A stretch of 36,145 nt of DNA from Elusimicrobia bacterium RIFOXYD2_FULL_34_15 (GTDB lineage Bacteria; Elusimicrobiota; UBA8919). The stretch lies in contig MGVS01000031.1 in the NCBI GenBank assembly GCA_001800605.1, forward strand, positions 28,238-64,382. The letters are read 5' to 3'. This document shows, piece after piece, positions 20,407 through 36,093 of the stretch (positions are counted from its first letter, which is position 1; every line of letters begins with the position of its first letter). The translations under genes and the position numbers were made by a program. The notes under the pieces are model-generated. The model ran no database searches, was not told where the DNA came from, and saw only the letters and a list, made by a program, of their open reading frames with translations.

Positions 20407-20457
20407 GGTGACGTGGTGTAGCTTGGTTTAATCCCGATTCATCGGGATCAAGGCAGA
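20407..20457 (+). pseudogene. tRNA-Asp 5' fragment with hairpin replacing the anticodon-stem 5' side
   Basis: GGTGACGTGGTGTAGCTTGG matches the first 20 bases of the intact tRNA-Asp at 20710 with one mismatch. After TTTA, the expected ACATGCTGCCCTGT is replaced by the perfect palindrome ATCCCGAT-TC-ATCGGGAT; CAAGGCAGA then resumes the tRNA. The 3' half is missing, and the next base begins the ATG of a GIY-YIG gene. Confidence 0.8.
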
Positions 20458-20724
20458 ATGGAAGGTAAGTTTTTTGTATATATATTACAAAGTGAATCAG
20501 ATGGGACATATTATGTGGGTTATTCAGGTAATCCCGAAAAACGCTTATTGATACATAATTCTAGTGTTGATAGTTGGTCTAGTAGAAAAAAGCCGTGGAG
20601 AATAATATATAAAGAGGAGTTCACAAATAGAAGTGATGCTATAATTAGAGAAAAAGAAATAAAGCGGCAAAAAAGCAGAAAGTTCATTGAGAAATTAATT
20701 TTATCAATTGGGGACGTGGTGTAG
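20458..20724 (+). CDS. Small GIY-YIG (UvrC/URI-like) nuclease embedded in tRNA-Asp copies
   Basis: 88 residues, the usual size of a stand-alone GIY-YIG domain. Motifs: VYI (7-9), YVG (19-21), Arg29 and His33 in EKRLLIHN, and Glu65 in IIREKEIKRQKSRK; these include the conserved nuclease residues. The ATG directly follows a 51-base tRNA-Asp fragment. The TAG stop lies inside the intact tRNA-Asp, whose first bases encode Gly-Asp-Val-Val-stop. The gene is thus bounded by direct copies of the tRNA 5' end 303 bp apart. No clear ribosome binding site. GIY-YIG proteins include homing endonucleases and repair enzymes; the tRNA-bounded layout suggests a selfish element, which is inference. Domain assignment is very sure. 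Confidence 0.9.
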   Translation: MEGKFFVYILQSESDGTYYVGYSGNPEKRLLIHNSSVDSWSSRKKPWRIIYKEEFTNRSDAIIREKEIKRQKSRKFIEKLILSIGDVV

Positions 20725-20785
20725 CTTGGTTTAACATGCTGCCCTGTCAAGGCAGAGATCGCGGGTTCAAATCCCGTCGTCCCCG
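20710..20785 (+). tRNA. tRNA-Asp (anticodon GTC), intact
   Basis: Acceptor GGGGACG/CGTCCCC, D arm GTGT/ACAT, anticodon stem CTGCC/GGCAG with loop CTGTCAA (anticodon GTC), T arm GCGGG/CCCGT, discriminator G. Its first 15 bases double as the end of the GIY-YIG reading frame. Confidence 0.95.
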
Positions 20786-20808
20786 AGTAAAATATTTTGT
20801 AAAAATTT

Positions 20809-20884
20809 ACGAGGTGTAGCTTGGTTTAATCCCGATTCATCGGGATCAAGGCAGAGATCGCGGGTTCAAATCCCGTCGTCCCCG
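20809..20884 (+). pseudogene. tRNA-Asp pseudogene with the same anticodon-arm hairpin replacement
   Basis: From ACGAGGTGTAGCTTGG it follows tRNA-Asp. It then carries the same ATCCCGATTCATCGGGAT palindrome in place of the D-stem 3' strand, anticodon-stem 5' strand and most of the anticodon loop, followed by an intact variable region, T arm and acceptor 3' strand. The 5' GGGG of the acceptor is lost. It has no anticodon and cannot be a normal tRNA. Confidence 0.85.
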
Positions 20885-20917
20885 AGTAAATTTTTAAAAT
20901 TATGGCAGAACAATAGA

Positions 20918-29994: not shown

Positions 29995-30199
29995 GATTGC
30001 CGCACCCCTCGATAAACTCGGGGTTCGCAATGACGGCCTGTTGTGTCATTGCGAGGAAGGTCGCCTTGGCGACCAACGAAGCAATCCCGAGGGTTGTGAG
30101 CATTATCGCCTGCCCACCTACGATTTCTTGTCCGCCCCCACCACTGAACCGTTGGTGGGCAAGAAAGTTTCAGTGGCGGAAGTGGTGGGAAGCAATCTC
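29995..30199 (+). repeat. 205 bp direct repeat, copy 2 (left flank of GIY-YIG ORF)
   Basis: Runs from GATTGCCGCACCCC to GGAAGCAATCTC. It differs from copy 3 at about eight of 205 positions by eye. It includes a nested palindromic segment (TTGTCCGCCCCCACCACTGA ... TCAGTGGCGG) absent from copy 1. Confidence 0.9.
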
Positions 30200-30215
30200 G
30201 AACTTACGAAGACTT

Positions 30216-30503
30216 ATGCAAAAATCCTATGCGATTTATATAATGACAAATACAAGTAACAATGTTCTTTATACAGGAGTAACAAGTAATTTAAAAAAGC
30301 GTATATACGAACATAAAAATAAAATAGTAAAAGGATTTACTGAAAAATATAATATAGATAAACTTGTTTATTATGAAATTTTCGATAGTTCTTTAAATGC
30401 AATAATAAGGGAGAAACAGATAAAGGCAGGTTCAAGAAGTAGAAAAATTAAACTAATCGAAGATATGAATAAAAATTGGAAAGATTTATATTGTGAATTA
30501 TAA
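30216..30503 (+). CDS. Small GIY-YIG nuclease between 205 bp direct repeats
   Basis: 95 residues from ATG 30216; the frame is open further upstream only through repeat sequence. Motifs: IYI (7-9), YTG (19-21), Arg29 in LKKRIYEHK, and Glu66 in IIREKQIKAGSRSRK. The conserved catalytic Arg and Glu are present. Only modest similarity to the GIY-YIG ORF at 20458, so not a recent duplicate. It occupies the 304 bp between repeat copies 2 and 3; its TAA ends at the base before copy 3 begins. No strong ribosome binding site. Possibly a nuclease linked to mobility or turnover of the repeat, by analogy with selfish GIY-YIG genes. Domain call is sure; role is inferred. Confidence 0.88.
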   Translation: MQKSYAIYIMTNTSNNVLYTGVTSNLKKRIYEHKNKIVKGFTEKYNIDKLVYYEIFDSSLNAIIREKQIKAGSRSRKIKLIEDMNKNWKDLYCEL

Positions 30504-30708
30504 GATTGCCGCACCCCTCGATAAACTCGGGGTTCGCAATGACGGCCTGTTGTGTCATTGCGAGGAAGGTCGCCACAGCGACCGACGAAGCAATCCCGAA
30601 GGTTGCGAGCATTAACGCCTGCCTACCTACGATTTCTTGTCCGCCCCCACCACTGAACCGTTGGTGGGCAAGAAAGTTTCAGTGGCGGAAGTGGTGGGAA
30701 GCAATCTC
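30504..30708 (+). repeat. 205 bp direct repeat, copy 3 (right flank of GIY-YIG ORF)
   Basis: Same length and ends as copy 2, in the same orientation, starting on the base after the nuclease stop codon. Contains the same nested palindromic insert. Confidence 0.9.
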
Positions 30709-36072: not shown

Positions 36073-36093
36073 CCCCGATGCTTGGCATCGGGG
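36073..36093. repeat. CCCCGATGC hairpin after the hybrid kinase
   Basis: CCCCGATGC (36073-36081) pairs with GCATCGGGG (36085-36093) over a 3-base loop. No T-run follows. It could terminate weakly or be a dispersed palindrome related in style to the ATCCCGATTCATCGGGAT insert in the tRNA pseudogenes. Confidence 0.5.

Follow-up and report, generated by a model that had tools for sequence, protein, structure and literature searches.

A small GIY-YIG nuclease gene among tRNA-Asp copies points to a palindrome-associated mobile element in bacteria

What kind of genetic unit places the gene of a small GIY-YIG nuclease between copies of a tRNA gene and lets it share bases with them? The question is raised by a locus of Elusimicrobia bacterium RIFOXYD2_FULL_34_15, located on contig 31 of a draft genome with 2.47 Mb in 119 contigs. 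In the window, i.e., the whole stretch of 36,145 nucleotides that was analyzed, the gene order is tRNA-Glu, tRNA-Val, a broken tRNA-Asp (copy 1), the GIY-YIG ORF, an intact tRNA-Asp (copy 2), a second broken tRNA-Asp (copy 3) and tRNA-Gly. The locus comprises the following features:

20409..20457, + strand: broken tRNA-Asp copy 1, the 5' part of the tRNA with a palindrome in the anticodon arm, abutting the ORF start
20432..20447, + strand: palindrome TCCCGATTCATCGGGA in tRNA-Asp copy 1, a member of the dispersed family TCCCGATNNATCGGGA
20458..20724, + strand: GIY-YIG nuclease ORF, 88 amino acids, group A, every catalytic residue present
20709..20786, + strand: intact tRNA-Asp(GTC), copy 2, according to ARAGORN, sharing 16 bases with the 3' end of the ORF
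20808..20885, + strand: broken tRNA-Asp copy 3, 5' end degenerate, same palindrome, 3' half complete
20830..20845, + strand: palindrome TCCCGATTCATCGGGA in tRNA-Asp copy 3

Coordinates and ARAGORN bear out the claim of a preliminary description that the ORF starts right after a tRNA-Asp 5' fragment (its first base follows 20409-20457) and has its stop codon (TAG, 20722-20724) inside the intact tRNA-Asp. The 5' end of the tRNA is likewise duplicated 303 bp apart, as had been stated, with GACGTGGTGTAG at 20410 and 20713. The upstream piece is a 5' fragment as described, but differs from a simple half tRNA in that the palindrome TCCCGATTCATCGGGA stands in place of bases 27-38 (CATGCTGCCCTG); beyond it, the tRNA sequence continues through TCAAGGCAGA up to the ATG of the ORF. 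Similarly, the broken and the intact copy reported before are both real, but the total is three. Copy 3 (20808-20885), which reaches only 15 bits with the Rfam tRNA model, carries the identical palindrome in place of the same bases 27-38, and in a comparison of the three tRNA-Asp copies the palindrome is absent from intact copy 2. Pattern searches with single palindromes, on which all genome-wide counts given here are based, find 31 copies of the family TCCCGATNNATCGGGA in the source genome versus none for the reversed control pattern. Third tRNA copies and dispersed palindromes, the latter a constant part of the structure, thus extend the original picture. A further palindrome of related make-up, CCCGATGCTTGGCATCGGG, lies near the end of the window (36074-36092).

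The ORF belongs to the GIY-YIG family, with 59.4 bits against PF01541 (E 4e-16; cut-off 22.6) and the catalytic Y..Y, G, R, H and E in place. These active-site residues are 99-100% conserved in 173 homologs (100 of group A and 73 of group B), and dN/dS values of 0.07-0.20, tandem copies included, imply purifying selection on the ORF. The predicted structure (pLDDT 85.5) and the sequence profile both place UPF0213 and Slx1 nearest, the latter being a nuclease that cuts branched DNA (PMC7017083). We consider it likely that a compact selfish element, pairing a gene for a small GIY-YIG endonuclease with a short palindrome, has one of its copies here, and that it settles in hairpin arms of tRNA genes without loss of an intact tRNA.

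The source genome contains eight GIY-YIG matches. At its tRNA-Ser(TGA) locus, a 5' part with palindromic inserts is followed by an ORF, an intact tRNA and a third copy with the same insert. Chance can be excluded as the origin of the window layout, because this layout recurs at tRNA-Ser(TGA) and in many genomes, isolates included. In a tRNA-Pro copy at a contig end, the T arm is replaced by a palindrome. In tRNA-Ser(CGA) (L151 480-566, contig 69), a palindrome of the window family makes up the variable arm of a gene that still scores as a good tRNA; a mobile palindrome may here have become part of a working tRNA. Related ORFs occur in 26 of the 60 relatives searched and form three sequence groups: group A ('STK..P' type), found in the context of tRNA and CCCCG-type repeats; group B ('GFTKKY...WKDLY' type), in the context of GTCAT-hairpin-ATCC repeats; and group C, which is YhbQ-like. 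In a genome of the same genus, the intact tRNA of the orthologous Asp site is in its native position and accompanied by a pseudo copy that contains two palindromes, one of them an exact replacement of the T arm, and the tRNA-Ser site holds a 5' fragment with palindromes; the ORF is absent from both sites. Four loci in which a GIY-YIG gene neighbors tRNA-Gly(CCC) (L001, L015, L025 and L026) were rejected as elements and left out of the element counts: their gene is of the YhbQ-like group C, tRNA fragments are absent and its position behind this tRNA is a conserved, ordinary gene order in the family.

Empty and occupied versions of a single site are found in Flavobacterium, where the gene order GatB/YqeY - tRNA-Arg(TCG) is conserved across the 30 loci compared. 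Both ORF and palindrome are missing from 27 of these and both are present in three (Fisher 2e-4), i.e., one conserved site is polymorphic for presence and absence, as expected of a homing element. Among the occupied sites, the ORF lies upstream of the tRNA in two and downstream in one, where a broken copy follows; at one of the three (L246) the contig stops within the tRNA, leaving the intact tRNA out of view. Together with the ORF-free Asp site of the same-genus genome, these 27 empty genomes provide the comparison with empty sites that had been suggested.

One alternative is that the nuclease is a companion or housekeeping enzyme by which the host trims or resolves hairpins, with the palindromes and tRNA pieces nearby acting as regulatory sequences (attenuators, promoters) instead of ends of a mobile element. 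Its YhbQ/UPF0213 and Slx1 relatives are of a structure-specific or repair type, hairpins adjoining short genes can serve as terminators and the ORF could be driven by the tRNA promoter. However, a host function does not sit well with the patchy presence at fixed sites (3/30) or with palindromes that lie within broken copies of whichever tRNA is local, and none of the 10 YhbQ-like group C genes from the same genomes, albeit a small control, has inverted-repeat flanks. We regard this explanation as unlikely.

A scan with the group-A profile, using one genome per species, yielded 80 loci from Bacteroidota, Patescibacteria lineages, Omnitrophota, Elusimicrobiota, Planctomycetota, Verrucomicrobiota, Acidobacteriota, Ignavibacteriota and others. 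An intact tRNA occurs within 150 bp of the ORF in 51 of them, compared to 4.2% of random positions in the same loci. ORF and tRNA share the strand in all 51 cases, the ORF being upstream in 37 and downstream in 14, and the tRNAs represent 16 amino-acid types. The association is specific: tRNA proximity applies to 64 of 99 group-A ORFs versus 14 of 177 control ORFs (Fisher 1e-23). Extra pieces of the local tRNA, mostly its 5' half and often containing palindromes, flank the ORF in 45 of the 54 loci with a tRNA within 350 bp. Both the recurrent tRNA association and the duplicated tRNA pieces for which a search had been proposed are thus observed, and the proposed architecture of a split tRNA with a retained intact copy is seen across loci. 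The earlier reading as a homing or tRNA-targeting selfish element gains support from this recurrence and from the empty sites, while cutting of DNA and self-spread would be the activities behind it. In the isolates Zunongwangia atlantica and Leeuwenhoekiella, the unit of 5' fragment, palindrome and ORF even forms tandem arrays that end in an intact tRNA (L057, from Z. atlantica, with four ORFs; L101); the former array could have grown by unequal recombination. Just downstream of this array-bearing tRNA-Arg lies a serine recombinase gene (L057 3267-4835), and the tRNA appears to be used by two kinds of element.

The palindromes occupy various positions. A whole anticodon arm is exactly exchanged for a palindrome at five loci (L041, L050, L115, L110 and L037) and a T arm at one, and clean insertions are found in other tRNA copies at 22/23, 32/33, 37/38 and 39/40. 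Many positions in broken copies are not exact arm swaps and the order of the parts varies, so that no single insertion rule emerges. The Bacteroidota palindrome CCTGCCTGCCGGCAGGCAGG (20 bases) is dispersed as well, with 4-12 copies in six of the eight genomes tested, one copy in one and none in one (control: 0). Inverted-repeat flanks are not the rule in group A (27/99), and by the tests used, 20 of the 99 ORFs have neither a tRNA nor such flanks.

Genes for tRNA are only one setting of a wider association between GIY-YIG genes and palindromes, which had escaped the preliminary description. The window itself includes a second such gene, situated between two copies of a repeat block (GATTGCCGC...GAAGCAATCTC; span about 29995-30708):

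29995..30198, + strand: first copy of the dispersed repeat block (GATTGCCGCACCCC ... CATTGCGAGG ... GAAGCAATCTC), 5' of the group-B ORF
30216..30503, + strand: the window's other GIY-YIG ORF, a member of group B (ORF finder start 29991; family N-terminus at 30216)
30504..30707, + strand: second copy of the repeat block, directly 3' of the group-B ORF

Inverted repeats on both sides (score of at least 24) characterize 55 of 73 group-B ORFs, versus 13 of 356 control ORFs from these loci and 1.6% of random windows; on named replicons, the proportion is 12 out of 14 (score of at least 23). By the tests used, 18 of the 73 have neither a tRNA nor inverted-repeat flanks. The flanks read GTCAT...ATCC and the repeat families include GTCATTCCCG...CGGGAATCC, GTCATTCTGA...GAATC and GTCATTGCGAG...GCAATC, among others. 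On the protein tree, hairpin types form clusters (13 changes versus a shuffled mean of 30.5), which partly reflects relatedness; single genomes hold paralogs with differing hairpin types, with modest within-genome support (p = 0.03). Repetitive extragenic palindromes (REPs) are of two sorts, those with a GTAG tag, tied to RAYT transposases, and those with a CGTC tag, including Neisseria dRS3, which 'apparently lack a dedicated transposase' (Di Nocera and colleagues, 2013, PMC3733652). Plain CGTC-tagged repeats flank group-B genes in Neisseria (dRS3), Azospirillum, Aeromonas, Rhizobium, Neorhizobium and Shinella. Group-B loci, e.g., in Neisseria, Azospirillum, Rhizobium and Shinella, display the typical organization of such REPs, with CGTC at one end and mostly head-to-head pairs, which the tRNA palindrome of the window does not. 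Sister group B thus accompanies CGTC-tagged REPs in the same companion manner, an association that is strong in this sample. In two alphaproteobacterial lineages, group-B elements appear to be located in the gap after sufB (L212, Azospirillum, annotated between sufB and sufC; L254, Shinella, placed by sequence only).

Genes for tRNA are known hot spots of integration, and tRNA fragments are the usual remnants of att sites. The GIY-YIG genes might accordingly be passengers, brought to these hot spots by unrelated integrases, with the tRNA pieces as ordinary att duplications, and the serine recombinase gene behind tRNA-Arg in L057 would fit this idea. Yet the duplication mostly concerns the 5' half plus a palindrome, whereas at integrase att sites it is typically the 3' end, the unit contains the ORF alone, in tandem arrays, the orientation of ORF and tRNA is the same in 51 out of 51 cases and the coupling of ORF and palindrome recurs away from tRNAs; we find this origin quite improbable. 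An integrase-type tRNA island, with an integrase in the element and a duplicated 3' end as att site, does not describe these units of a GIY-YIG ORF and a 5'-half duplication either. A group I intron carrying a GIY-YIG ORF in a tRNA was rejected too: the tRNA beside the ORF is complete and contiguous, and the other pieces are separate broken copies.

Action on RNA, by which the protein, a toxin or anticodon nuclease, would cut the anticodon loop of tRNA, with the additional tRNA copies serving as antidotes or decoys, might explain why breaks and palindromes center on the anticodon arm in many copies. It is very unlikely, however, given that most of the would-be decoys are either 5' fragments or heavily damaged, that the tRNAs represent at least 16 amino-acid types and that close paralogs sit in DNA palindromes outside tRNAs. 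Finally, an artefact of metagenome assembly or a tandem duplication by chance is extremely improbable, even though the draft genome has 119 contigs and repeats are prone to misassembly, as the tRNA-Asp copies differ in sequence and lie well inside a 64 kb contig, and the same layout is found in isolates such as Zunongwangia, Leeuwenhoekiella and Flavobacterium tiangeerense.

Returning to a selfish element, its target would be the hairpin arms of tRNA genes, most often the anticodon arm and at times the D, variable or T arm. The palindrome would enter or replace an arm of one tRNA copy, the ORF would end up between the copies and the duplicated intact tRNA beside the element would allow the host to survive. 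The nuclease, as a relative of the branched-DNA nucleases Slx1 and UPF0213, may recognize and cut extruded hairpins or cruciforms. Homing or transposition would follow if repair from an element-bearing copy or sister chromosome imports the palindrome and the ORF and duplicates the tRNA, as the tandem copies and empty sites suggest, with only those events that leave an intact tRNA surviving. Non-autonomous palindrome copies lacking the ORF may settle as well, as suggested by the same-genus genome, and would then move using the nuclease in trans. If true, replacement of hairpin for hairpin is an unusual mode of insertion.

The recurrent layout across phyla points to a mobile element that was not described before, and its nuclease may also supply the partner that is missing for a large class of palindromic repeats in bacteria. 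We give an even chance to the broader proposal that small GIY-YIG nucleases are the mobilizing enzymes of CGTC-type and related repeats, recognizing DNA hairpins instead of a sequence and exchanging or inserting them, with the tRNA-splitters as a branch that uses the arms of tRNA genes, at times in an exact swap of arm for palindrome. The element accounts for GIY-YIG genes whose start or end lies within a tRNA or a repeat, and illustrates how essential tRNA genes can be exploited by a selfish element while one intact copy persists. In the open-access journal literature searched, we found no link between GIY-YIG genes and bacterial REPs, CGTC repeats or broken copies of tRNAs.

Several known systems resemble parts of this arrangement. 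UPF0213/YhbQ and eukaryotic Slx1 are closest by sequence profile and fold, but the YhbQ-like group C of the same genomes lacks a palindrome or tRNA-fragment context, and Slx1 has a further zinc-finger domain that is absent in these nucleases. Fungal mitochondria, where double-hairpin elements also occur, have gene-splitting elements whose endonuclease ORF invades a gene, with a duplicated piece restoring the intact gene. The likeness would lie in this insertion with restoration, while those elements concern protein-coding genes in mitochondria. SegB of T-even phages, a free-standing GIY-YIG homing endonuclease, is also a small enzyme adjoining tRNA genes (treated in PMC13096335). Here, by contrast, bacterial chromosomes and many tRNA types are involved. 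Broken tRNA copies with palindromes have, to our knowledge, not been described for SegB systems. REP/RAYT systems (REPtrons) share short dispersed palindromes, a single small nuclease gene and ORF-less copies that outnumber coding ones, and their placement of the enzyme gene between inverted palindrome copies is found in group B (55/73), though not as a rule in group A (27/99). They differ in their enzyme, RAYT being an HUH tyrosine transposase and not a GIY-YIG nuclease, and in their GTAG tag, in place of which group B has GTCAT...ATCC flanks and the tRNA palindromes are untagged; moreover, group A uses tRNA genes and retains an intact tRNA copy. CGTC-tagged REPs, including Neisseria dRS3 and Rickettsia RPE-4/RPE-6 (PMC3733652), are the type of repeat that flanks group-B genes in Neisseria, Azospirillum, Rhizobium, Shinella and others, whereas the group-A palindromes in tRNA copies are other sequences without the CGTC tag. 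No enzyme gene was associated with these REPs in the 2013 study (PMC3733652), while a GIY-YIG gene is their recurrent companion here, so that the enzyme question, published as open for repeats such as dRS3, gains a concrete candidate.
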